Part shown: piece by piece, positions 3,394 to 32,708 of the stretch
Layout of the letters: each line of letters opens with the position of its first letter
Numbering within the stretch: position 1 is the first letter of the stretch
Assembly (NCBI RefSeq): GCF_009905435.1
Contig: NZ_JAAAMT010000028.1
Span: forward strand, 1 to 64,000
Reading direction: 5' to 3'
Length of the DNA: 64,000 bases
From: Pseudomonas sp. R5(2019)
GTDB lineage: Bacteria > Pseudomonadota > Gammaproteobacteria > Pseudomonadales > Pseudomonadaceae
Position numbers and translations under genes: made by a program
Notes under the pieces: model-generated
The model's input: the letters and a program-made list of their open reading frames with translations, nothing else
The model's database searches: none
Told to the model about the DNA's origin: nothing

Positions 3394-5541
3394 TCAGACG
3401 CGGAACTGGTCCATCAAGCCTTGTTGCTGGTTTGCCAGGCTATTGAGCGACTGGCTGACCCGGGCGGACTCATTGGCCTGACCCGATAGCGATTCAGTGA
3501 CATCGCGGATGGTGGCGACGTTGTTGTTGATTTCCTCGGCGACTGCGCTTTGCTCTTCGGCAGCGCTGGCGATCTGCAGGTTCATGTCGGTAATGATGGT
3601 GACCGCATCGCCGATCTGGCGAAGTGCAGTGACAGCCTGGCCGACCTGCTCGACGCTGCCCTGCGCCTGGCGATGACTGTTGCTCATCGCCTCGACCACC
3701 ACCTGTGTGCCTTGCTGCAGGTGTTCGATCACCTGGCGGGTTTCTTCGACCGACTCCTGAGTGCGACGGGCCAGGTTGCGTACTTCATCGGCCACTACCG
3801 CGAAGCCACGCCCGGCTTCACCGGCGCGGGCGGCTTCGATCGCAGCATTCAAGGCCAGCAAGTTGGTTTGCTCGGCGATCGAGCGGATGACCTCCAGTAC
3901 CGAGCCAATCTTTTCGCTGCTGGCCGCCAAGCCTTCAACCTGGCTCATCGCGGTGCTCATGTCGGTCGCCAATTCATCGATACTGCCCGTGGTGCGGTCG
4001 ATGACGGCCAAGCCCTGGCGCGTGGCCTGATCGGCGTCCCGGGCAGCCTGTGCCGCTTGGGCTGCACTGCGGGCGACATCCTGGGCGGTAGCGCTCATTT
4101 CATGGGAGGCGGTTGCCACCTGATCGACCTGGCGGTACTGCTGTTCCATGCCGGCGCTGGTCTGGCTGGCGATCGAGGCTGATTGGTCTGCGGTGTCCCG
4201 GGCGGCTTGCACGGAGCGCTTCACGTCGGCAATCGTCGGTTGCAGTTTGTCGAGAAAGCGGTTGAACCAGCCGGCCAACGCGCCCAGCTCATCACGTTTG
4301 GGATAGTGCAGACGACGGGTCAGGTCACCTTCGCCGCTGGCGATGTCCTGGAGCATATCGGCGACCCCGAGGATGGGCCGCGTGACGCTGCGGGCCATCA
4401 CCCAGACCAACAACAAGCCGATGATCGCGGCCATCAACCCGAGGCCCAGTTCAATCAGGGTGCCGCTGGCATTGCGTTGATCCAGCTCTTTTTTCAAGGC
4501 TTCGGCGGGACCGACCAGTGCGGCTGCCGGTACGTCCAGCAGCACGCCCCACAACTTGCCATCAGGAATGGGCGCGAAGGAGGCCAGGACCTTGAGCCGT
4601 GCATCGTGGTGGAGGCTGTGAAGAGGCTTGCGATCACTGAGCAGGCCAACCAGTTGTGCGCCATTGACACTGTCAACCTGCTCCAGGCGCTTGGCAAGCT
4701 GAGACGCATCGCCGCTGTGGCCGGCCAGCAAGCCGGCTGGGCTGATGATGCTGACGCGCGTCTGGCCTTCATACAGGCTTTGGCTGGCCTGCTCGCTGAT
4801 GACCTGCAGGCTGTTCAGATTGATGTCCACTAACAGAGTCGCGATCGCCTTGCCGTTGTCCATCAGCGGAAACACGATGCTGGTCATCAGCACGTTCTGG
4901 CCATCGATCTCGTAGAAATACGGCTCGATCACGCACGTCTTGAGCGTGGTCCTCGGGCAGGTCGACCACGTGTTGTTCGGCTCTCCGCTTGGGCCGATGC
5001 TGGTGTCATTCATGTCCCGTTCCGGCAGCGCCATGGAGGTCAGCTTACCTGCCGTCGGCTGTGACCAGTACAGCGCATAGCGGCCTTTCTCATTGCTGCC
5101 CAAGATGTGCTGATTGACGAACAGCTCGTCCTTGCCGTCCAGCGCGTTGGGCTCGAACACCAGGGAAAGTCCCAACAGTTGCGGGTTGGCCTGCAAGGCC
5201 GACTTGACCTGCCGGGTCATGTCCTCTCGCAAGTCAAAGGCATCCAGAAAGCGCTTTTGCGCCTGTTCACGCAAGAACAACACCTGGCGCGAGAAGCCTG
5301 CGCCGTATTGATAGGCATCCATGAATTGGCGACGAATATTCAGCGCCTGCACTTCGCCCTGGGATTCCAGGCGTGCCCGGGCCGACTCATTGAGCATTTG
5401 CATGCTGCTGGCTTTGACCAATTCCGAGTTGTGCTCCATCCGGTACAAGGACAACCCGACCAGCAGGGTGACTGTAGCCAGCAGGCAGAGGCCCGCCAGC
5501 AGGGTAATTTTCCATTGAATGGAAAGTTGTCTGAGTGACAT
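3394..5541 (-). CDS. Methyl-accepting chemotaxis protein
   Basis: A 715-aa transmembrane chemoreceptor that passes ligand binding to CheA/CheW. TM1 is near 12-32. A large ~340-residue periplasmic region follows, of a size and pattern suited to a double-Cache fold. TM2 is ~375-397, then HAMP and the cytoplasmic signalling coiled coil. The hairpin tip [20 protein letters not shown] is canonical. The protein ends in DQFRV with no CheR-tethering pentapeptide. The ATG at 5541 is preferred over an upstream start at 5610 because an AAGGA lies 8 nt before it and the N-terminus then begins directly before TM1. It is a single gene, divergent from the antiporter gene. The ligand is unknown. Confidence 0.93.
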
Positions 5542-8339: not shown

Positions 8340-10460
8340 CTACCGGAAACTGTAGGAAACCCCAGCATACACCCCGAAGCCTTCGCCGGGCGTCGAACGG
8401 GCAATATCCTGGCCCTTGTCGTTGTAGCCCGGTGTGACCGTGGCAGCGTAGCGCTTGTTGGTCAGGTTGCGCAGGTCCAGCCAGGTGTCCCAGTCGTGCT
8501 TGGGTGAGGCATAACCCAAGGTGGCACCGAGCAGGGTGTAGTGGTCGGCGTAGAAGCTGTTGGCATAATCAACGGCGATCTTCGAGGCCACCTGGGTGTT
8601 GATGCCAGCGTAGAAACCCAGTGGGTGGTCGAAGCGCAGCTCGGCCTGATAGTAATGACGAGGAATGCCCGGCAGGCGGTTGTCGCCAAAAGTGTCGTCA
8701 TCCCGGTAGTGGAAATCGCTGAAGGTGTAGGCCTGACGCAACGACACCTTGCCGACGGCAGCGCGTTCCCAAAGCAGGCTGTCGAGGCCGGCTTCGATGC
8801 CCTGGTGCACGGTCGGGCTGGCGTTGACCTCACCGACGATTTGCGAGGTGGTGGCCGTTGCTGTCTGGGTCTCGACTGTCAGCAATTCATGGCGCACGGC
8901 CGAGTAGTACCAGGCCAGGTCCCAGCGCCCGATGGCCGATTCGCCCCGGCTGCCGAGCTCGAAGGTGGTGGCGGTCTGGTTTTGCAGTTCGACAGGGGTA
9001 CTTTGCAAGCCGGTCGCTGCACCGCTGCCGGCCGGGAAGTAGCGGTTCGAGCTCCAGATCAACGCCCACGGGTGCGGCGGCTCTACCGTGCGGCTGATGT
9101 TGCCATACACCTGCAGCTGCGGCGTGAAGTCGTAGCGCAGGCCGACCCGTGGTGCGTAGTCCCAATCGTGCTGGCTGACTTTGCCGCCGCTGGCGGGGTA
9201 GGTCACGTCGCTTTCCCGACGGGTGTAGATCAGCGCCAGGCCTGTGGTCAGCCACAGGTCTGGCACCAGCTCCAGGTCGTTACTGGCGTGCAGCGCAGAA
9301 TCTGAACCCTGATAGCTGAAGTCCCGGGTCTTGGTGCCGGGGGCGAAGCCTGCCGTATTGCCGACCGGAATCCGCACGAACTCGGAAGAGCCGCTGTTGG
9401 GCAGGTGCTTGGTGGTGCGCCAGCCCAGGGTGGTCTTGCTTTCATGGCCGAACAGGGTATCGCGGCGATGGTAATTCAACGAGCCGCTGACATCGGTGTA
9501 CGCCACCTTCAGCCGGTTGGCGCCCTCGCGCAGGTCCATCGGGTAGTCGTGGTACACCAGCCCGGTTTCCAGTTGCGAATCGTCGTCCAGGTAAAAGGTC
9601 GTCTTGTTCGCCAGCCAGGTGCTGCCCGGTTGCGGGCGGCTGGCGTCGCGCGCCACGTAGACCGGGTTGGCGGCGCGAGGGTGATGCTCGATCGAGTCTT
9701 TGCTGACCCGGCCGGCCAGTTCGTTATCGGTCTCCCGGTAGCGCAGGTAAAAGCGGGTTTCCAGGTTGGGGTTGAAGCGGTAGCCGACGTTGGCGGCGAT
9801 CCCCTGGCTGTTGCCTTGGGTATGGTTCTGATAGCCGTCGTAGTCGGAGTCGGTCAGTGCTACATAGTAATCCAGATCGCCCAGCACTTGCCCGGAACTG
9901 ACTTGGCGCTTGCGGTAGCCATGGCTGCCCATTTCGTAACGCACTTGCAGAGGCGCAGCGTCGTAACCGGTGCGGGTGATGTAGTCGACCGCGCCGCCCA
10001 GGGCCAGCGAACCCTTGTTGAAACCATTGGCTCCGCGCAGCACCTCGGCGCGGCTCAGCCACAGGGGTTCGAGCAGCTCATAGGGCGTGCCACCGGGGCC
10101 GGTCAAGGGCAAGCCGTCCAGCATCACGAACACGCCTGAACCGTGGCTGCCCGGTGCCCGGTTGATTCCGGAACCTCGAATCGACAGCTTGATGCCTTCG
10201 TTGCCAGCCGATTGGGCATACACGCCCGGTTGGTAGGCAAGCACGTCCTGGTTGCTGGAAACGCGGCCCTGCTCGACACGGGTCAGGTCGATCAGGTTGC
10301 TGGCGCCGGGCACTTGCTGGAGGCGCTCGCTGGCGGCTTCCAGTTCCGTGCGTTCGCTTTCCTGAATCATGACCTGGCCCAGTTCGATGCCTTCGGCGGG
10401 GGCGCAGGCCAATGCCACGAGCACAGCGAAGGGTTTGGAGAAGGGCAGGGGGGATCGCAT
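8340..10460 (-). CDS. TonB-dependent outer-membrane receptor
   Basis: A 706-aa outer-membrane receptor. It has a signal peptide (1-~24), a plug domain (~45-165, with RGSGINRAPGSHGSG and a conserved EVLRGANGFNKGSLALGGAVDYITR), then a 22-strand type barrel ending in the aromatic C-terminus SYSFR. It is broadly FecA-like, so a ferric chelate or another metal complex is the likely cargo, but substrate cannot be assigned. No FecA-type N-terminal signalling extension or adjacent sigma/anti-sigma pair is present. ATG 10460 is preferred to TTG 10463, with GGAG upstream. An inverted repeat in the leader may be an operator. Confidence 0.9.
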   Translation of the reverse strand: MRSPLPFSKPFAVLVALACAPAEGIELGQVMIQESERTELEAASERLQQVPGASNLIDLTRVEQGRVSSNQDVLAYQPGVYAQSAGNEGIKLSIRGSGINRAPGSHGSGVFVMLDGLPLTGPGGTPYELLEPLWLSRAEVLRGANGFNKGSLALGGAVDYITRTGYDAAPLQVRYEMGSHGYRKRQVSSGQVLGDLDYYVALTDSDYDGYQNHTQGNSQGIAANVGYRFNPNLETRFYLRYRETDNELAGRVSKDSIEHHPRAANPVYVARDASRPQPGSTWLANKTTFYLDDDSQLETGLVYHDYPMDLREGANRLKVAYTDVSGSLNYHRRDTLFGHESKTTLGWRTTKHLPNSGSSEFVRIPVGNTAGFAPGTKTRDFSYQGSDSALHASNDLELVPDLWLTTGLALIYTRRESDVTYPASGGKVSQHDWDYAPRVGLRYDFTPQLQVYGNISRTVEPPHPWALIWSSNRYFPAGSGAATGLQSTPVELQNQTATTFELGSRGESAIGRWDLAWYYSAVRHELLTVETQTATATTSQIVGEVNASPTVHQGIEAGLDSLLWERAAVGKVSLRQAYTFSDFHYRDDDTFGDNRLPGIPRHYYQAELRFDHPLGFYAGINTQVASKIAVDYANSFYADHYTLLGATLGYASPKHDWDTWLDLRNLTNKRYAATVTPGYNDKGQDIARSTPGEGFGVYAGVSYSFR

Positions 10461-10531
10461 CAAGCGTGCTCCAGGACGACGAACAATGAGAGCTCAGACG
10501 CACGAAGTGACGGACAAAGCACGGCGATCTT

Positions 10532-10547
10532 TAACGCAAAGGCGTTA
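10532..10547. promoter_or_regulatory. Candidate operator upstream of the TonB receptor
   Basis: TAACGC and GCGTTA form a perfect 6-bp inverted repeat with a 4-base spacer, 72 nt before the receptor start. It is not a good match to a Fur box. Its role is inferred only from position and symmetry. Confidence 0.35.
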
Positions 10548-10569
10548 CCCGGATTTTTCGCCGCATAAA

Positions 10570-10595
10570 AAACACCCCGCCGAGGCGGGGTGTTT
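10570..10595 (-). terminator. nuo operon terminator
   Basis: A 12-bp GC-rich stem (AAACACCCCGCC with GGCGGGGTGTTT) has a very short loop. It is followed on the minus strand by further T residues. It lies 18 nt past the nuoN stop codon. Confidence 0.9.
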
Positions 10596-10612
10596 GAGGG
10601 GGCAGCGCAGCA

Positions 10613-12082
10613 TCAACCGATCAGTTGAAAGCCTGCGTGTTGCACCATGTCCAGCAGCGGTTGTGGGTAGACGCCGAGAACGAAGGCCACGATCGCGATC
10701 GCCAGCAGCATCACGCCGCCGGTACGTTGTTCCCAGTTGAACGGTGCATCGTGACGACGCAGGTTCGGTTCGATCAGGTACAGGGTGACCATCACGCGCA
10801 GGTAGTAGAACACGCCGATGGCACTGCCGATGACCAGCGTACCGACCAACCACCACAGCTGCGATTCAACACCGGCGGCAATGATGTAGAACTTGCCGAT
10901 GAAGCCTGCGGTCAGCGGAATGCCCGCCAGCGAGAGCATCATCACGGTCAGCACGGCGGTGAGGTACGGACGGCGCCAGAACAGGCCGCGGTATTCGTAC
11001 AGGGCGTCCGCGTCACGGCCGTTGTACGGCGAGGACATCAGGGTGATCACGCCAAAGGCGCCCAGGCTTGTGATCACGTAGGTGACCAGATACACGCCGA
11101 TGGCTTCCAGCGCCAGGCCCTTGCTCGCCACCAGGGCGATCAGCAGATAACCGAAGTGGGCGATCGAGGAGTAACCCAGCAGACGCTTGAGGTTGCTCTG
11201 GGTCAGGGCCAGCAGGTTACCGACGATGATCGAGACCACGGCAATGATTGCCAGCACATCGTGCAGCACGCCGCTGCTGGCAGCAGGCGAGAGCTGGAAC
11301 AGGCGCACGACCACGGCGAACACCGCGACCTTGCTGGCAGTGGCCAGGAAGGCGGCAACCGGTGCCGGAGCACCTTCGTAAACGTCCGGGGTCCACAGGT
11401 GGAAAGGCACCAGCGAGAGCTTGAATGCCAGGCCTACCAGCATCATGGCCAGGCCCAGCTGTGCCAGCAGGCTTGGCATGCCGGTGGCTGCCAGTGCCGC
11501 GCCGATACCGCTGAAGCTCAGGCTGCCGGCGTCGGCGTACAGCAGTGCCATGCCGAACAGCAGGAATGCAGAGCCTGCGGCCGACAGCACCATGTACTTG
11601 ATGCCGGCTTCCAGCGAACGCTTGTTGAAGAACGCATACGCCACCAGGCCATAGACCGGAACCGACAGCAGTTCCAGGCCGACGAACAGGCCCGCCAGGT
11701 GCTGCGCGCTGACCAGCACCAGACCACCGGCGGCGGCCATCAGGATCAGCAGGTACAGCTCTTCACGGTTGCCGGGGTAGCCCGAACCGCCATCGCCCAG
11801 GTAGGCGTGGGCGAGGGTGACGCAGGCCAGCGTGGCCACCAGGATCAACGCCATGTACAGGCAGGCGAAGTTGTCGATCTGCAGCAACGGGGTGACGGCC
11901 AGCGGGGCGACTTTCAGCGCCGGGATGATCGACAGCAATGCCAGGTTCAAGCCTGCTACCGAGAGCAGGAAAGTTTGCGAGTGATTGCGACGCCAGGCGA
12001 TGGCCAGCATCACCACGATGATGGTGAGGCTGGTGATCAGCAGCGGCGCAAGCGCGATAAAGTGTTGAATCGTCAGGTCCAT
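10613..12082 (-). CDS. nuoN: NADH-quinone oxidoreductase subunit N
   Basis: NuoN is one of the three antiporter-like proton-pumping subunits in the membrane arm of complex I. The 489-aa protein has about fourteen hydrophobic helices. The conserved [12 protein letters not shown] and [18 protein letters not shown] segments are present, including the lysine and proline of the broken helix. The start is set at the [11 protein letters not shown] (12082), 7 nt after the nuoM stop. A longer in-frame extension to 12145 would run into nuoM and is rejected. It is the last gene of the operon, just before the terminator. Confidence 0.96.
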
Positions 12083-12089
12083 AGCGCTC

Positions 12090-13622
12090 TTACCGGGCCG
12101 AAGCGAGTTGAGTGAAAGCGGAACCGAACCACTGCTGTACACCACTCATGGTGGCGGCAGAAGTATCCAGGAACGGCTGCGGATAAATCCCGAGCAGGAT
12201 CAGCAGGCCAGCCAGGCCCAGCACCATGATCATTTCGCGACCGTCCATGCCGGCCAGCACTTCCTCGGATCTGGCCGGGCCGAAGAAGGCGCGGTGGATC
12301 ATGATCAGCGAGTAGACCGAACCGAACACCAGGCCCGAAGTGGCGATCACGGTGACCCACGGCGAGGCCACGAAGCTGCCGATCAGGATCAGGAACTCAC
12401 CGACAAAGTTACCGGTGCCCGGCAAGCCCAGCGAAGCAGCCGCGAAGAACAGGCTGATCGCCGGCAGGTAAGCGATGCGGTGCCACAGGCCACCCATCTG
12501 ACGCATGTCACGGGTGTGCAGGCGCTCGTACAACTGGCCGCTGAGGATAAAGAGTGCGGCGGCCGAGAGGCCGTGGGCCAGCATCTGGATCACCGCGCCT
12601 TGCAGGGCTTGCTGGCTGCCGGAGTAGATGCCGATCAGCACGAAGCCCATGTGCGCGACGCTGGAGAACGCGATCAGGCGCTTGATGTCGGTCTGAGCGA
12701 AGGCCAGGAACGCACCGTAGAAAATCCCGATCAGACCCAGGGTCATGGCGAACGGCGCAAACTCGGCCGAGGCATTCGGGAACAGCGGCAGGGCGAAGCG
12801 CAGCATACCGTAGGCAGCGGTTTTCAGCAGAATACCGGCCAGATCCACCGAACCTGCGGTCGGTGCCTGGGCGTGAGCGTCAGGCAGCCAGGAGTGGAAC
12901 GGTACGACCGGCAGCTTGACCGCGAAGGCGATAAAGAAGCCCAGCATCAGCAGGTACTCGGTACCGGCTGGCATCTCGGCCTTCAGCAACTGCGAGTAGT
13001 CGAAGGTCAGCACGCCAGTGCTGTTGTAGTTGACCAGCACCAGACCGAGGATCGCCACCAGCATGATCAGGCCGCTGGCCTGAGTGAAGATGAAGAACTT
13101 GGTCGCGGCGTAGATCCGGGTTTTCTTGCCGTCTGCCGAGCTGTGACCCCAGAGCGCGATGAGGAAATACATCGGCACCAGCATCATTTCCCAGAAGAAG
13201 AAGAACAGGAACAGGTCCAGGGCCAGGAACACCCCGACCACGCCGCCCAGGATCCACATCAGGTTGAGGTGGAAGAAGCCGACGTGGCGCTGAATCTCTT
13301 TCCACGAACACAGGACCGACAGCACACCGAGCAAGCCGGTGAGCAAGATCATCAGCAGCGACAGGCCGTCCAGGCCCAGGTGCACGCTGATACCGAAGCG
13401 CTCGATCCAGAGCACTTTGAATTCAAGCGCCCAGGCAGGTTCGGCACCCGGAGCGGGGGCGAGGGTGTAGTCACCGTTGGCCCACAGCCAGAGGCCGATA
13501 CCGAGCAACAGGGACATGGTCAGCAGCGCAATCCAGCGTGGCAGGGTGGCGCCGAAGCGCTCACCCAGCCAGCACAGCAGGCCGCCGATAAAGGGGATCA
13601 GGATCAGCCAAGGCAAAATCAT
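12090..13622 (-). CDS. nuoM: NADH-quinone oxidoreductase subunit M
   Basis: This 510-aa antiporter-like membrane subunit of complex I forms the middle proton channel of the membrane arm. The family signature [20 protein letters not shown] carries the conserved glutamate of TM5. [29 protein letters not shown] contains the lysine and broken helix. It starts at ATG 13622, 39 nt after nuoL. Length and gene order are standard for pseudomonads. Confidence 0.97.
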
Positions 13623-25139: not shown

Positions 25140-25553
25140 TCATTGTTTCAGCTTCGCTTGCCGCATGCGACGACCCACGGGAGCCCAATCGAGCGCCCCG
25201 ACCCGCCAAAGGTAGACAAGACCTGCCAACAGAATTGCTATGAAAACGAGAGCTTCGACGAATCCGGCCCAGCCGCTTTCGCGGACGGACACAGACCAGG
25301 CAAAGAGAAAGAGGGCTTCGATATCGAAGATCACGAACAGCATCGCGACCAGATAGAATTTTGCGGAAAGACGCAGGCGCGCGCCGCCGGTAGGCAGCAT
25401 GCCGGATTCGAAGGGTTCGTTCTTGGCGCGGCCGAAGGCCTTGCTGCCAAGAAGGCTCGACAGACCGAGCATGAAGGCGCACAAGCCGACGACACCCAAA
25501 AGGAAGATGGCAAAGCCCCAGTTGTGGGCGATGAGTCCTGTCGAATCGGGCAT
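25140..25553 (-). CDS. nuoA: NADH-quinone oxidoreductase subunit A
   Basis: A 137-aa three-helix membrane subunit near the quinone cavity and the first gene of the operon. The conserved loop with [39 protein letters not shown] is present, including the invariant acidic residues of TM2. A candidate promoter on the minus strand (TTTACT, 17 nt, TAAAAT) lies about 100 nt upstream. Confidence 0.96.
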
Positions 25554-26018: not shown

Positions 26019-26136
26019 GGAGCCGAGCTTGCTCGCGATGAGGCCGGTAAAGGTTGCGGACATGTTGCTGCTGGAGAGGCTGTTGCGGGTGAAATATCCG
26101 CAGATGAGGCGGTTTCATCGCGAGCAAGCTCGGCTC
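26019..26136. repeat. REP pair (BIME-like)
   Basis: GGAGCCGAGCTTGCTCGCGATG at 26019 (written here in two parts: GGAGCCGAGC, TTGCTCGCGATG) is mirrored by CATCGCGAGCAAGCTCGGCTC ending at 26136, again as an inverted copy. Such head-to-head GAGCAAGCTCG elements are the typical extragenic repeats of fluorescent pseudomonads. The ~70 nt between them shows no gene, and the apparent ORFs across it are repeat translations. Confidence 0.85.
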
Positions 26137-26220: not shown

Positions 26221-26667
26221 CTGGCTACCGTTGCGTTCCTGATAGCGAAGTCATTGCTGGTGATCCGCTGCTCAAGGAACTCCTAACAGTCGACCTCCTG
26301 CTCCAGGACGTGAAGGTGTTCGAGTCGCGAGCTGCCTTGAAGGCTCCGTGCGATGGTGTCTTGCGGGGCCCTAGACGCGGCGATCTCTCAGCGCTGTCAG
26401 CTTTTTCGGGTTGCGCTCCCCGGCGATGATTGCCCTGAGGATCTTCAAGCTGGTGACGCCGGAAATATTGCTGATGACATTCGCCAATTGAACGTTCATC
26501 TGCCTGAGCGCTTTTGGAATCCGATTGAGTGGCTGTGCCTGGTCATGAACCGTGTTCGCTCGCCGTCGAACCAATGCGCGCACCGAACAAATAGCGCCTG
26601 CGGGCCGAAACGCGCTGCACCCCTTGGTTGCGCTCCATGCAGTCCTTTGCAAAGCGTTGAGTCGCAA
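26221..26667 (-). pseudogene. IS110-family transposase remnant
   Basis: On the minus strand, the reading frame ending at 26371 contains VRALVRRRANTVHDQAQ, then ALRQMNVQLANVISNISGVT and KILRAIIAGERNPKKL, then TALRDRRV. This is the middle-to-late part of an IS110-type transposase. A stop (TAG) follows, but a +1 frame then resumes the family sequence as DTIARSLQGSSRLEHLHVLEQEVD. After a further stop it continues as EFLEQRITSNDFAI. At least two lesions plus missing N- and C-terminal parts mean it is inactive. IS110 elements usually lack terminal inverted repeats, so the original ends cannot be traced. Confidence 0.75.
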
Positions 26668-27242
26668 AGAAAGGAAGGCGGAGGTTGACTGCGAGGTTTT
26701 GATCCTATTCGTCGCCGCTCAGCTTCAGGAATGGCTCCGGCTATAGCGCTTCCATACCTGCTGATGAGCCCGTCACAAGCGCTCGCTTTCCTCTCAATCG
26801 TCCTCTCATGGCTTGGTACTCCGTCATGCCATTTGGGTGACTGGGTGCTTGCGGTTGCATGGGGTATAACGCATTGATCTTGAATGTAAATTGAGAGCTG
26901 CCCTTCGATAGTGCAAGATCTAAAAGTATTATCCAAGTGCGTTATATGATGTTTCAGGGGTGTGCGGAGTCGTGCTTTTTAATCAGCTGTATGGCTGGAT
27001 GCGCACAGTGTCCTGATGCGACTAGTTATTTGTTTTGTGAATAGTATGTCGATATCTCGGTAAAAGTTCCTACAGAGTTTTCGCTCGAAAATTTCGGAAT
27101 TTTTCCTATTGATGAATGAATTTATTTGTGGAAGGCTAATGGTGTGTGTTTATTTGTGTGATTGAGCGGCAGTGGTTTGATTAATGAGGTGCCGGAAAAT
27201 ACCTTAATAGCTGAGGATGTTGCATCCATTGCTTAGGGTCTC
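26668..27242. other. AT-rich spacer without supported genes
   Basis: About 575 nt with no convincing ORF on either strand. GC content is clearly lower than in the flanking core genes, especially from 26880 on. TATAACGCA (26865-26873) and TGCGTTATA (26938-26946) are inverted copies 64 nt apart. No terminator or known mobile-element end was seen. Confidence 0.5.
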
Positions 27243-27395
27243 GTGAATTTACCTACCCCAACTATCAACCGCTGTTGGTCGGGACGTCACCAATGCTCTT
27301 TGATCAAAGAGCTCTATACGACCATGCGACGAGGCATACCACTGTGGGTGGATGCACTAGTGACCCTGCCACGCTGGTTTTTGGCGTCGAGGTGA
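27243..27395 (+). CDS. Short unrecognised ORF before the MFS fragment
   Basis: A 50-codon ORF starting at GTG, preceded by TTAGGG, with the stop 16 nt before the MFS start. Its second half (LIKELYTTMRRGIPLWVDALV, TLPRWFLASR) has an ordinary protein-like composition, and the spacing suggests an operon. An in-frame stop just upstream prevents a longer reading. It may be the tail of a lost gene or chance. No family was recognised. Confidence 0.3.
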   Translation: MNLPTPTINRCWSGRHQCSLIKELYTTMRRGIPLWVDALVTLPRWFLASR

Positions 27396-27411
27396 TCCTG
27401 AAGTGAGGAGA

Positions 27412-27738
27412 ATGTTGAGTAAAATCAGTTTGGCGGCAGGAATGCGCAATATTGTTTTGCTCCGGTTGCTCTTCGTCACGGCGAATGCGTTGGGGCCTTT
27501 TGCTGCCTTATTTTTCCAGCGTCATTACCAACTCGAAAGTTCGGCGGTGGCGTTAGTGATTACGCTGATGTCGGCGTTCTATCTCGCGGGTAATCTATTG
27601 GGCGGGGCGCTGGTCGGTCATTGTTCATTCCGGGCGCTATTCATTTGTACTTCGTCCTGTTCATCAGTGTTTCTGTTACTCGCTGTCGTGTTCAGCTCAT
27701 CGGTCGCATGGACGGAAGCGGCGCCCCGTGTTTCATAG
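27412..27738 (+). pseudogene. MFS transporter, truncated N-terminal fragment
   Basis: The 108-aa reading starts at ATG 27412 behind AGGAG. It contains the first two or three membrane helices of a major-facilitator exporter: RNIVLLRLLFVTANALGPF, then an extracytoplasmic QRHYQLESS loop, then ALVITLMSAFYLAGNLLGGALVG with the usual motif-A position. The hydrophobic pattern runs on to LLLAVVFSSS and then stops. MFS proteins have ~400 residues and twelve helices, so about three-quarters is missing. It lies upstream of leuS on the same strand and may have exported the compound that leuS protected against. That link is inference. Confidence 0.6.
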
Positions 27739-27817
27739 CCACAAAGGAGCTGAAACCTGCATCCGAAGCCGGCTGGCTAGCCGCTTTGAAACATCAATGG
27801 AAAGAGGTGTGGTTAAG

Positions 27818-28140
27818 ATGAACGCGACAACGCAGGATTTGTTTGGTCGGTTGTACACGGCTTCCCCGACCCTGGTCAAAACCGATGATTTCGAAAATAT
27901 GGCCAAATTTTTATTTCATTGTTTATGACAGTCTGTATCGATCGCTTAAAGCGAAATATAGACCGGCTCATGCATTTAGTGTTTGGCCCGGTGGCTGGCT
28001 ATGGGGTGGGCGCAACTGGGAAAAGTCGGAGTCCAAAATCTTGTCTATTTCGATAAGCGCTTTTTGTGGCAAGCGTTCTCTTGTTGAAGTTGACCGGAAG
28101 TTTACAAGGGAATGTGAGCCGAATGAGTCATTGTCGCTCA
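27818..28140 (+). pseudogene. Frameshifted unrecognised gene before leuS
   Basis: ATG 27818 follows GGAAAGAGG and begins a 36-aa reading, MNATTQDLFGRLYTAS through DDFENMAKFLFHCL, which ends at 27928. Shifting frame there gives a natural continuation, YDSLYRSLKAKYRPAHAF. A second shift near 28030 gives GVQNLVYFDKRFLWQAF. Protein-like sequence that moves through three frames points to a decaying gene rather than three small ones. I did not recognise the family. It precedes leuS on the same strand. Confidence 0.4.
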
Positions 28141-28165
28141 GTTCCAGCAATGTTGAGGAACCTCT

Positions 28166-30757
28166 ATGCGACCGCAGTACGATCCAGCCTGGGTAGAAAG
28201 TACGGCGCAGGCCAAATGGCTTCAAGATGATGTATTCAGGGCGGTCGAAGATGAAAGTCGGCCCAAGTTTTATGCTTGCTCCATGCTTCCCTATCCATCA
28301 GGTAAGTTGCACATGGGCCACGTACGCAACTATACGATCAACGACATGCTGGCCCGTCATTTGCGCATGAAGGGGTTCAACGTGCTAATGCCGATGGGGT
28401 GGGATGCTTTCGGTTTGCCGGCAGAGAATGCGGCTATGCAGTCGGGCGTTTCTCCCGCCCAGTGGACACGGTTGAATATTGCTGACATGAAGTCGCAAAT
28501 GCAGCCGCTGGGCCTGGCTTTCGACTGGTCGCGAGAAATCGCCACCTGCGACCCGGAATACTACAAGTGGAACCAGTGGTTTTTCTTGAAACTGCTGGAA
28601 AAGGGCGTGGCCTACAAGAAAACCCAGATAGTCAACTGGGACCCTGTCGATCAAACAGTTCTGGCCAATGAGCAGGTGATCGATGGTCGAGGCTGGCGAT
28701 CTGGGGCGCTCGTCGAGAAACGGGAAATTCCCGGGTACTACCTGCGCATCACTCAATATGCCGAAGAGCTGCTATCGTCCATCGACACTTTGGATGGCTG
28801 GCCGGATATGGTCCGCACCATGCAGCGCAACTGGATTGGCAAGGCCACCGGGGTTCGTCTGGCATTCGCCCACAAGATTCAAAACGCCTCCGGGCAACTA
28901 ATCGATGCAGGCAAACTGTGGGTGTTTACAACCCGCGTCGATACGCTCATGGGAGTGACGTTTTGTGCCATTTCTCCCGAGCATGCACTTGCCAGGCGCG
29001 CTCTGGAGATCAATCCCGGCCTTGAGTCGCAGGTGCAGGCGTGTCGGCAAGCGGAAGATGCGGGCACGGCTTTCAGAGCCCAAGTCAAGATCGGCGTTCC
29101 CACCGGTTTGCAGATCGACCACCCGTTGACCGGTGAGCCTGTCGCACTGTGGATTACCAACTACGTGCTCGGCGGATATGGTGAAGGGGCCCTGATGGGG
29201 GTGCCTGCCCATGATAAACGTGACTTCGAATTTGCCAATCAATACGGTTTGCTTGTTCGCCAGGTCATTGCCTGCGACGATCAGGTATACGACCCCCGGG
29301 GCTGGTCAGACACCTACACCAGTCGGGACGGCCATCTAGTCAACTCCGGCACCTACGATGGGCTGGCAGTCGCACAGGCCACCCGGGCCATCGTCGCTGT
29401 ACTGCGTGAGCGTGGAATGGGCGAGGAGACCACCACATGGCGCCTGCGCGACTGGGGAATTTCACGGCAGCGTTACTGGGGTACCCCAATTCCCATTATC
29501 CATTGTGAGCAATGTGGCGACGTTCCGGTACCTTACTCGGATCTGCCCGTGGTGTTGCCCACCGATTGCACTCCCGACGGCAGCGGCAATCCGTTGCTGC
29601 AGCATGACGGGTTTCGCCATGTGGCTTGCCCTCGCTGCGCAGCGCCTGCGCTGCGTGAAACGGACACCATGGATACCTTCGTGGATTCAAGCTGGTATTT
29701 CATGCGCTATTGCGATCCCGACAGTCATACCTCGATGGTGGGGGCCGGCAGCCGATACTGGATGCCGATTGACCAATACATCGGCGGTATCGAGCATGCG
29801 GTTCTGCATTTGCTCTACGCCAGATTCTGGACCCGGGCGATGCGTGATGAAGGGCTGGTGAACTTCAGCGAGCCATTCAAAAGCCTGTTTACCCAAGGAA
29901 TGCTGCTGCGTGAAAGTTATTACCGAAAAGCCGACGACGGTAGCCGGCGGTGGTTCTATCCCGCTCAGGTGTTGGTCGAATACGATGAAAAAAGCCGCCC
30001 GGTGAGGGCCACGGCGCTTGAGGATGGTTTACCTGTCACCATTGGCGACGTGGAGAAGATGTCCAAGTCCAAGAACAACGTCGTCGAGCCGAAGGACATC
30101 ATCAACAAGTTTGGTGCCGACACGGCCCGATTGTTTACGATCTTTGCGGGCCCCCCTGACCAGAGCACGATCTGGAGCGACAGTGGCGTTGAGGGTGCCT
30201 ATCGCTTCCTGCGCCGGCTCTGGCGCTTTGCCAGCGAGGAGCAGGCCCCACGTAATGGGGATGAGCAGGCTGAAGATGTTGCCGAATCCAGACGCGTGCG
30301 CTTTGAGATGCATTGTTTGCTGCAGCAGATCAACATTGATTACGAACGACTGCAATACAACACCGTGGTGTCGGGCGCGATGAAAATGCTCAAGGTTCTG
30401 GAGGGGGGCAAGGCGGCCGGTCAGCAGACGTCGCGCGAGGGCATGGCAATCCTGTTGCAGGTTTTGCATCCAGTGACGCCGCATATCTCCCAGGTCCTCT
30501 GGGATGAGCTGGGGTTCGCAGGTGATATCTACGACAGTTCGTGGCCGGTTCCGGATAGCGAAACTTTGAAACAGGACGAAGTAAAAATGATGGTGCAGGT
30601 CAATGGCAAGTTGCGCGGAGATATCATGATCCAGGCTAATGCCGATCACGAATTGATACGAAGCCGGGCGTTATCCGATGCTGCCTTGCGCAGTCACCTG
30701 GAAGGCGCCGGGAGGATGATCGTGGTGCCCAACCGTCTGGTGAACTTCATCGTCTGA
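28166..30757 (+). CDS. leuS: Leucyl-tRNA synthetase, accessory (betaproteobacterial-type)
   Basis: An intact 863-aa class I synthetase that charges tRNA-Leu. HMGH (49-52) and KMSKS (631-635) are complete. The CP1 editing domain has TTRVDT (255-260, with the discriminating Thr at 260) and the universal Asp at 353. The zinc-like pairs HCEQC and CPRC (447-491) are present. Wording such as YTINDMLARHLRM, VFTTRVDTLMGVTFCAIS and NIDYERLQYNTVVSGAMKML follows Burkholderia/Ralstonia-type LeuRS as I remember them. Pseudomonas housekeeping LeuRS differs (YTIGDV, TTRPDT). The usual neighbours holA and lptE are absent, and decayed genes precede it. GAGGAACCTCT precedes ATG. It is probably a horizontally acquired second copy, perhaps inhibitor-tolerant. 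Confidence 0.93.
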   Translation: MRPQYDPAWVESTAQAKWLQDDVFRAVEDESRPKFYACSMLPYPSGKLHMGHVRNYTINDMLARHLRMKGFNVLMPMGWDAFGLPAENAAMQSGVSPAQWTRLNIADMKSQMQPLGLAFDWSREIATCDPEYYKWNQWFFLKLLEKGVAYKKTQIVNWDPVDQTVLANEQVIDGRGWRSGALVEKREIPGYYLRITQYAEELLSSIDTLDGWPDMVRTMQRNWIGKATGVRLAFAHKIQNASGQLIDAGKLWVFTTRVDTLMGVTFCAISPEHALARRALEINPGLESQVQACRQAEDAGTAFRAQVKIGVPTGLQIDHPLTGEPVALWITNYVLGGYGEGALMGVPAHDKRDFEFANQYGLLVRQVIACDDQVYDPRGWSDTYTSRDGHLVNSGTYDGLAVAQATRAIVAVLRERGMGEETTTWRLRDWGISRQRYWGTPIPIIHCEQCGDVPVPYSDLPVVLPTDCTPDGSGNPLLQHDGFRHVACPRCAAPALRETDTMDTFVDSSWYFMRYCDPDSHTSMVGAGSRYWMPIDQYIGGIEHAVLHLLYARFWTRAMRDEGLVNFSEPFKSLFTQGMLLRESYYRKADDGSRRWFYPAQVLVEYDEKSRPVRATALEDGLPVTIGDVEKMSKSKNNVVEPKDIINKFGADTARLFTIFAGPPDQSTIWSDSGVEGAYRFLRRLWRFASEEQAPRNGDEQAEDVAESRRVRFEMHCLLQQINIDYERLQYNTVVSGAMKMLKVLEGGKAAGQQTSREGMAILLQVLHPVTPHISQVLWDELGFAGDIYDSSWPVPDSETLKQDEVKMMVQVNGKLRGDIMIQANADHELIRSRALSDAALRSHLEGAGRMIVVPNRLVNFIV

Positions 30758-30781: not shown

Positions 30782-30824
30782 ACGAAAAACCCGGTGTTTC
30801 GTGAGAAACGCCGGGTTTTTTCGT
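30782..30824. terminator. Shared terminator of leuS and aceA
   Basis: AAACCCGG and CCGGGTTT pair with an inner GTTTC/GAAAC extension. A-runs and T-runs on the two sides suit both strands. It lies between the converging leuS and aceA stops. Confidence 0.8.
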
Positions 30825-30854: not shown

Positions 30855-32180
30855 TCAATGAAACTGCTCTTCTTCAGTCGAGCCGGTCAGCGCGGTGACC
30901 GAGGATGAGCCACCCTGGATCACGGTGGTCATGTCGTCGAAGTAGCCGGTGCCCACTTCCTGCTGGTGCGCCACGAAGGTATAGCCTTTGGCGGCGTCAG
31001 CGAACTCCTGCTCTTGCAGTTTCACGTAGGCGGTCATGTCGTTGCGGGCGTAGTCGTGCGCCAGGTTGAACATGCTGTGCCACATGTTGTGGATGCCTGC
31101 CAGGGTGATGAACTGGTGCTTGTAGCCCATGGCCGACAGCTCGCGCTGGAACTTGGCGATGGTCGCGTCGTCCAGGTTTTTCTTCCAGTTGAAGGAAGGC
31201 GAGCAGTTGTAGGACAGGATCTGGTCCGGGTATTCCTTCTTGATCGCTTCGGCGAAGCGACGGGCTTCGTCCAGGTCCGGCTTGGCGGTTTCACACCAGA
31301 TCAGGTCGGCGTAAGGGGCGTAGGCCAAGCCGCGGGCGATGGCTTGATCGAGACCTGCACGAACCTTGTAGAAGCCTTCCTGGGTACGGGTGCCGGTCAC
31401 GAATGGCTGGTCGTACGGGTCGCAGTCGCTGGTCAGCAGGTCGGCGGCGTTGGCGTCGGTACGGGCCAGGATAATGGTCGGTACACCGGCAACGTCAGCG
31501 GCCAGGCGAGCGGCAGTCAGCTTCTGAACGGCTTCCTGAGTTGGCACCAGTACCTTGCCGCCCATGTGGCCGCATTTTTTCACTGAAGCCAGTTGGTCTT
31601 CGAAGTGAACGCCAGCGGCGCCTGCTTCGATCATGCTCTTCATCAGTTCGTAGGCGTTCAGGACGCCACCGAAACCGGCTTCGGCGTCAGCAACGATTGG
31701 CGCGAAGTAGTCGATGTAGCCGTCGTCGCCCGGGTTCTTGCCGGCTTTCCACTGGATCTGGTCGGCACGACGGAACGAGTTGTTGATGCGCTTGACCACG
31801 GTTGGAACCGAATCCACCGGGTACAGCGACTGGTCTGGGTACATGGACTCGGCAGAGTTGTTGTCTGCAGCGACTTGCCAGCCCGACAGGTAGATGGCCT
31901 GGATGCCGGCCTTCACTTGCTGTACAGCCTGGCCGCCGGTCAGGGCGCCCATGCAGTTGACGAAGTCCTTGTCTGGACGGAAGGAAGGCTTGGCACCTTG
32001 GGTGACCAGGTTCCACAGCTTTTCAGCGCCCATGCGGGCCAGGGTGTGCTCAGGTTGGACCGAGCCACGCAGACGAACGACATCAGCGGCAGAGTAGGTA
32101 CGAGTCACGCCTTTCCAGCGCGGGTTTTCTGCCCAGTCTTTTTCAAGGGCTGCAATTTGCTGTTCGCGTGTCAGTGCCAT
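30855..32180 (-). CDS. aceA: Isocitrate lyase
   Basis: Isocitrate lyase splits isocitrate into glyoxylate and succinate, the first step of the glyoxylate shunt used on acetate and fatty acids. The 441-aa protein carries the KKCGHMGG signature (201-208) with catalytic C203 and the metal-binding region around VHFEDQ. ATG 32180 ([12 protein letters not shown]) has GAGG 10 nt upstream and matches the family start. The longer reading to 32270 is not conserved. It is a single gene with a 528-nt upstream gap. It competes with Icd and Idh, both in this window, for isocitrate. Confidence 0.96.
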
Positions 32181-32708
32181 GGAGATAAACCTCGTCGCAT
32201 AGGTCTTGGGTGAAAAATTCTTGCTCCGTCTGGCAGCTGTCTCGACAACATACCGGTGACTTGCTCGCAAACCAGAAGCTTAGGCGCTCGAGTCCTGGTT
32301 TGACGGGGCGGGCGACGATCGAACGATGAGGTCGATTGAAGAAGAGGAAGTGGTCGGGCGTCGGGCGAGTCTTGCGGGCGCACTGTGGCTCGTGGATGCC
32401 GGTGTGCAGCCGAAAGGGTCTTGCCGTGTACCTCGTATCTGCTTCCGTCCCTCAGGACAACTTCGTTCCAGTCGCAACCTCGTCAAACTGCCTTGTGGGC
32501 GGTACAGACACGAATCGGCTCAGGTGGGTAGGGTTAGAGCGGCGATTCGAAGGCCCTTGTCGGGGCCTCTGATTAGCGGGAGCGGGGCCATCATGCCTCC
32601 GTGATTTTTCGCCGTCAAATGTTTTGTAGTGGTTTTTTTGGTCCACTACATCTTTGGTCTAATACGACTGAGCAGTCAGTTTCAAGGCCTTTGGTCGAAG
32701 CCTTGATT
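32181..32708. promoter_or_regulatory. Long aceA upstream region with palindrome
   Basis: A 528-nt intergenic stretch that presumably holds the aceA promoter on the minus strand. TGTAGTGG (32625-32632) and CCACTACA (32643-32650) are perfect inverted copies 10 nt apart. The halves TGTAGT/ACTACA resemble sites of the RpiR-type regulator RccR, a known controller of aceA in pseudomonads. The spacing is wider than I recall for RccR and the site is ~445 nt from aceA, so the assignment is tentative. The 64-codon ORF below it (32452-32646) has no recognisable features. Confidence 0.45.

Follow-up and report, generated by a model that had tools for sequence, protein, structure and literature searches.

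The analysed window, a 64,000-nucleotide stretch of the genome of Pseudomonas sp. R5(2019) (termed G000), contains an intact extra leucyl-tRNA synthetase gene (LeuRS2; 28166–30757, plus strand; 863 amino acids plus stop) in a decayed island. Comparative sequence analysis makes it probable that LeuRS2 is a working LeuRS of Chitinibacter-like origin which acted as the self-immunity enzyme of a small cluster producing a LeuRS-directed metabolite and was kept after the producing genes decayed. An intact spare synthetase beside the ruins of a cluster that is preserved in relatives suggests that an antibiotic, since lost and undescribed, has left its immunity gene behind, and the data support the reading as a possible resistance gene that was advanced in the original prediction.

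The reading frame of LeuRS2 is devoid of internal stops, and Pfam analysis of the protein revealed class I catalytic, LeuRS editing and anticodon-binding domains. Together with the motifs HMGH, KMSKS, TTRVDT and Asp353 (corresponding to Asp345 of the E. coli enzyme), all present as originally stated, this amounts to the catalytic, CP1 editing and anticodon-binding domains and the HIGH/KMSKS signatures of a bacterial leucyl-tRNA synthetase. The closest solved structures by sequence are LeuRS chains, with 6q89 at the top. The synthetic-site residues examined match those of housekeeping LeuRS and, because of this conservation, LeuRS2 should be able to charge leucine. A Shine-Dalgarno-like GAGGA (28155–28159, plus strand) is directly readable six bases 5′ of the ATG, and GAGGA or AAGGA is kept at the aligned position in all ten LeuRS2 orthologs described below. 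On direct reading, a terminator-like hairpin followed by a T run (30790–30821, plus strand) is found 3′ of the stop codon; it is not among the sites listed by the computational scan. The third-position GC content of 0.677 is lower than that of the three nearby core genes aceA (0.748), nuoG (0.788) and nuoCD (0.823), and the gene sits between nuoA and aceA and not beside holA/lptE, both in agreement with the original prediction.

A second leuS is indeed present elsewhere in the genome: the only other full-length LeuRS of G000 (contig C35, 24694–27285) is 53% identical to LeuRS2 and of the housekeeping type, lying within the Pseudomonas housekeeping clade of the tree. Each of the nine other genomes with LeuRS2 also encodes a housekeeping LeuRS, 88–91% identical to that of G000, so that LeuRS2 is an additional copy of separate phylogenetic position that accompanies a housekeeping enzyme, as is characteristic of self-immunity aminoacyl-tRNA synthetases. 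Orthologs of LeuRS2 (74–100% identity) occur in 10 of 398 Pseudomonas genomes (G000, G252, G243, G208, G349, G077, G037, G371, G190 and G204), the next among the matches listed showing 52–55% identity. The reading frame is open in nine of them, and the G204 copy carries a TAG at residue 135. No LeuRS2 genome beyond these ten was detected among 144 relatives of G000, over one third of which lie outside the genus, or among 59 genomes around G208.

In a tree of 77 LeuRS sequences, which comprise 49 of 80 named loci and 20 Pseudomonas housekeeping sequences and were analysed by a quick method with SH-aLRT support and no bootstrap, the ten LeuRS2 proteins form one clade (100) that joins Chitinibacter (98), then Chitinimonas (92) and Undibacterium (100). 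This clade has a long stem of 0.58 changes per column and is nested in a mostly betaproteobacterial group, separate from the 20 Pseudomonas housekeeping sequences (100), in line with the original prediction of a foreign-type enzyme. From this nesting among betaproteobacterial LeuRS next to Chitinibacter we infer that LeuRS2 is acquired, the donor being a Chitinibacter-like betaproteobacterium. In Chitinibacter, Chitinimonas and Undibacterium, leuS has lptE- and holA-like neighbours, as recognised by eye from the translations. The motifs originally cited as betaproteobacterial fared differently. YTINDM is found in 18 of 41 non-Pseudomonas, mostly betaproteobacterial rows (counted without Cardiobacterium) and in none of the 20 Pseudomonas housekeeping rows, whereas TTRVDT occurs in only one of the 41 (TTRADT in 27, TTRPDT in 13) and, being present in eight of ten LeuRS2 proteins, rather marks the LeuRS2 clade itself.

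The island is bordered in the window by nuoA (25140–25553, minus strand) on the left and the isocitrate lyase gene aceA (30858–32180, minus strand) on the right, and contains several remnants upstream of LeuRS2. The clearest is the stub of an MFS exporter (27385–27708, plus strand) with about 108 N-terminal codons, which is 85% identical to the intact copy of G208 (E 1.7e-51) and was retrieved as a 98-residue match in the MFS search of the Pseudomonas genomes as well. A membrane desaturase stub (27767–28013, plus strand) retains the N-terminal end (27767–27901) and, in another frame, the C-terminal end (27870–28013) with the middle missing (best E values of 1e-6 and 1.5e-10 in tblastn searches with intact proteins). 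Two pieces (26621–26809, minus strand; E 7e-13 and 5e-4) derive from the short-chain dehydrogenase (SDR) gene with which, in divergent orientation, the cluster begins at this site, and a weak match (27282–27359, plus strand; E 7e-5) possibly represents a 26-codon stub of an AbiEi-like gene. In view of these stubs, the initially considered option that the producing cluster was never here has been dropped. The decayed stretch also harbours a 27-nt inverted repeat (26020–26136) with GAGCCGAGCTTGCTCGCGAT arms, 93% complementary and separated by 63 nt, which resembles Pseudomonas REP elements. Upstream of aceA, the window encodes SrbA, an sRNA regulator of biofilms (RF02872, 111.8 bits; 32347–32573, minus strand).

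Better-preserved versions of the neighbouring cluster, matching the stubs of the window, were found in relatives when 16–20 kb around nine LeuRS2 orthologs, and for some further upstream, were read. In G208, G349 and G190, the cluster lies directly upstream as a co-directional biosynthetic run that ends with LeuRS2, an arrangement that would correspond to a single operon. On the basis of Pfam and NCBIfam assignments, the core of eight genes encodes an oxoamine synthase, a CitE/RipC-like lyase, a MaoC/RipB-like hydratase, a member of the ornithine-cyclodeaminase (OCD) family, a D-2-hydroxyacid dehydrogenase, a class II aldolase, a HisC-like PLP enzyme and an MFS transporter. The G190 version has further genes for an SDR, an AbiEi-like protein, a membrane desaturase and an ATP-grasp ligase whose relatives include BacD-type L-amino acid ligases. 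AbiEi-like genes, members of a type IV antitoxin family, were observed inside two cluster versions (L136 of G189, 11673–12407; L121 of G190, 4266–5003). The best NCBIfam relatives of three cluster enzymes are PRK07505, a BioF/Kbl-like family named only “hypothetical protein”, which the oxoamine synthase matches above the cut-off (486 vs 342), and the itaconate-degradation enzymes RipB and RipC, whose matches, at 221 and 185 bits, respectively, fall short of the curated cut-offs of 340 and 375 bits. The product would be a small amino-acid-like compound, or a dipeptide where the ligase occurs, and one may speculate that the set of lyase, dehydratase, dehydrogenase and aminotransferase resembles the logic of leucine synthesis. 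Furanomycin from P. fluorescens SBW25, an isoleucine analogue, was considered as the compound and set aside.

The cluster and LeuRS2 are statistically linked, the aldolase being present in three of the ten LeuRS2 genomes compared with 3 of 388 others (Fisher p 2e-4). The rooted order of G190, G349 and G208 is identical in the LeuRS2 and cluster trees, an agreement expected for three taxa by chance in one of three cases. All eight core genes are found in six genomes (G189, G190, G208, G230, G301 and G349) and are open in five; in G208 the 2-hydroxyacid dehydrogenase gene (L116, 12571–13575) shifts frame near its end, possibly by early decay or by a sequencing error in a draft of about 80 contigs. 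LeuRS2 is thus encoded with a whole core in three of its ten genomes (G190, G208 and, like G190 open throughout, G349), with a partly deleted one in G037 and with adjacent stubs in the window, G243 and G371, but the other three whole-core genomes (G301, G230 and G189) have a single LeuRS and lack LeuRS2, so that producers do not strictly require it. With G189 as the root of the cluster tree, two of these absences would be explained by a single loss in the ancestor of G301 and G230. The cluster was absent from the flanks (up to 10 kb a side) of the 80 named LeuRS loci among the matches listed, the aldolase gave no plasmid match at 1e-20, and all 135 plasmid records matching LeuRS2 stay below 60% identity. 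Among 398 genomes of a phylum sample, the aldolase was found outside Pseudomonas in one (G585, 37%), where the 20 kb read contained no further gene of the cluster.

Within Pseudomonas, the aldolase is present in 6 and the MFS gene in 11 of the 398 genomes, two of the latter as fragments. Taken together, the three probes LeuRS2, aldolase and MFS mark 15 genomes, six with a whole and nine with a broken or missing core; as these probes miss broken islands that keep only another gene, the count is biased towards LeuRS2 and MFS. In the nine broken islands LeuRS2 is open in six (G000, G037, G077, G243, G252 and G371), stopped in G204 and not found in G201 and G332, of which the latter holds stubs only. 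The aldolase is missing from all nine, and a full-length MFS gene persists in two (G243 and G201; that of G037 has an internal gap). The oxoamine synthase, which was searched genome-wide in 13 genomes including seven of the nine and only locally in G201 and G332, persists in one, G037. Neither the aldolase (E up to 1e-30) nor the oxoamine synthase (E up to 1e-40) was detected anywhere in the genomes of G000, G077, G204, G243, G252 and G371. In the window, G252, G243, G349, G301, G230, G189 and G201, the island is flanked by nuoA and aceA, with 96–98% identity at the aceA border compared in frame, so that one chromosomal site shows whole, half-lost and orphan states. In G208 it adjoins nuoA before the contig ends, and neither border gene occurs in the stretches read of G190, G037, G371, G077, G204 and G332. 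The broken nuoA–aceA island of G201 (L187, reverse complement, 9856–11058) keeps only a full-length MFS gene with an SDR tail and possibly represents exporter-only immunity.

Pairwise dN/dS values of 0.044–0.123 in 44 of 45 pairs, the remaining pair being saturated, demonstrate that the LeuRS2 family is under purifying selection. Comparisons of orphan with cluster copies yielded 0.110 (G252–G208), 0.117 (G243–G208), 0.117 (G000–G208) and 0.097 (G077–G037), values which include the time before cluster loss. For the MFS stub of the window, dN/dS amounts to 0.16–0.25 (five computed pairs) versus 0.085–0.375 for intact copies over the same codons. As the stub is no more relaxed than its intact counterparts, the cluster loss in the window seems recent, and the intactness of its LeuRS2 alone consequently says little about selection after the loss. 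The gene might thus be a neutral remnant with its decay yet to come, an alternative of low but appreciable probability which is favoured by the young appearance of the adjacent stub, by the breakage of the gene in G204 and by its absence from G201 and G332. However, LeuRS2 is open in two thirds of the broken islands, a share biased upwards by the probes, among them G252 and G077 where the stretch read contains no other cluster gene, and its ribosome-binding site is conserved, which rather argues for retention.

A general spare synthetase for stress, other regulation or resistance against outside inhibitors, inserted beside the cluster by chance, appears improbable. Copies without the cluster at several sites (G252, G077, G371 and G204) would conform with it, and duplicate synthetases of unsettled role exist according to the accessible part of a review (PMC9437257), but a chance neighbour is at odds with the association of LeuRS2 with the cluster, which is both statistical and physical, and with the stubs beside several orphans. 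A biosynthetic role, in which LeuRS2 gives leucyl-tRNA or leucyl-adenylate for the metabolite, is the least probable alternative: its terminal position in the run of three relatives and the use of seryl-tRNA for valanimycin (cited in the accessible part of PMC9437257) would fit, but half of the whole cores lack LeuRS2, the gene is open where the biosynthetic genes are gone (G000, G252, G077 and G371, and G243 with MFS), which is unexpected for a purely biosynthetic gene, and the cluster proteins scanned include no tRNA-using enzyme at a curated cut-off, the OCD protein matching glutamyl-tRNA reductase only below threshold. Eight of nine cluster loci scanned contain no tRNA gene, and the ninth (L119) has a single tRNA-Gly downstream of LeuRS2.

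In the preferred self-immunity scenario, the product of the cluster would be directed against LeuRS and exported by the MFS protein; it would probably be a leucine-like amino acid, or a dipeptide containing one where the ATP-grasp ligase is present. With the housekeeping enzyme blocked or misused by this metabolite, LeuRS2 would continue to charge tRNA-Leu. After decay of the producing genes, LeuRS2 would be retained because neighbours still make the metabolite. A potential clue to its mode of action is offered by the clade-specific changes at otherwise conserved columns, which amount to 12 of 72 in the editing domain versus 12 of 278 elsewhere (Fisher p 8e-4); Thr252 and Asp345, both editing residues, are kept in all ten LeuRS2 proteins. 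Four control clades show 0/67, 0/71, 0/74 and 1/72 editing-domain changes. Among seven single-row controls, two are also significantly enriched (L065, 9/74, odds ratio 6.3; L084, 12/72, odds ratio 3.5) and five are not; the signal is therefore treated as a lead that makes an editing-based immunity possible. A search of the literature on Ala293 of E. coli LeuRS provided nothing useful. In a more specific version, considered rather unlikely, the undescribed metabolite would be toxic via the editing site or mischarged tRNA-Leu, and protection by LeuRS2 would stem from an altered tuning of the editing domain rather than from closure of the synthetic site; strains such as that of the window would then be resistant non-producers that retain the immunity gene after toxin loss.

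LeuRS is a drug target, and AgnB2 is to our knowledge its only characterised natural immunity form. A Pseudomonas biosynthetic run with its own LeuRS would offer a direct route to a new LeuRS-directed compound, and since islands exist in the whole, half-deleted and orphaned state, often at one and the same chromosomal site, toxin loss with immunity retention can be tested in relatives. Immunity synthetases are a known class, among them MupM, the immunity IleRS of mupirocin producers, and the attached cluster is apparently undescribed in the open-access literature. Among the open-access papers listed by our searches, none describes a Pseudomonas cluster that carries a LeuRS of its own; starting from the PDB identifiers of the nearest oxoamine synthases, only a paper on enzyme engineering was reached. 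A review of duplicated synthetases gives two archaeal cases for LeuRS in its accessible part, and the word Pseudomonas is absent from its main text (PMC9437257). Agrocin 84 is named as the natural LeuRS case in the accessible parts of two further reviews (PMC4392301, PMC7916415).

As far as the accessible part of the former review describes them, the immunity IleRS, SerRS and TrpRS of mupirocin, albomycin and indolmycin producers are likewise insensitive second synthetases in the producer, but concern other amino acids and clusters (PMC9437257). Haloarchaeal LeuRS2 and LeuRS-I of Sulfolobaceae are, according to the same source, also second LeuRS of unsettled role; they charge tRNA poorly or not at all and the editing domain of LeuRS-I is disrupted, whereas the Pseudomonas enzyme keeps the catalytic and editing residues examined and would not share this loss of editing or charging features (PMC9437257). 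The closest parallel is AgnB2, the agrocin 84 immunity LeuRS of Rhizobium rhizogenes K84 (plasmid pAgK84), which is likewise a second LeuRS linked to a biosynthetic cluster, although the agn genes and the Pseudomonas cluster are set apart by annotation and the two synthetases share 39.8% identity in the alignment. Another plasmid-borne LeuRS, about 41% identical to LeuRS2 (Agrobacterium tumefaciens pAtG3_79b; L141, 5995–8514), groups with AgnB2 in the tree, but the branches are long and the support is weak, and no biosynthetic genes are named beside it in 14.5 kb. The residues contacting Leu-AMS are little changed in AgnB2, as in LeuRS2, and resistance of the former originates from peripheral residues and tRNA contacts, as described in the accessible part of the structural work (PMC5059758). 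Its determinants Thr42, Ala102, Gln573, Gln413 and the lost LS domain, taken from the same part of that source, are opposed in LeuRS2 by Pro44, Asn104, Met632, Arg428 and an LS segment of 49 residues, so that none of them is found in the alignment (PMC5059758). LeuRS2 has its own nearby changes at residue 102, two positions from that aligned with Ala102 of AgnB2 (E. coli 104), and at E. coli positions 627 and 629 after KMSKS. Given the absence of the AgnB2 resistance residues, immunity by LeuRS2, if real, would work differently from that against agrocin 84.
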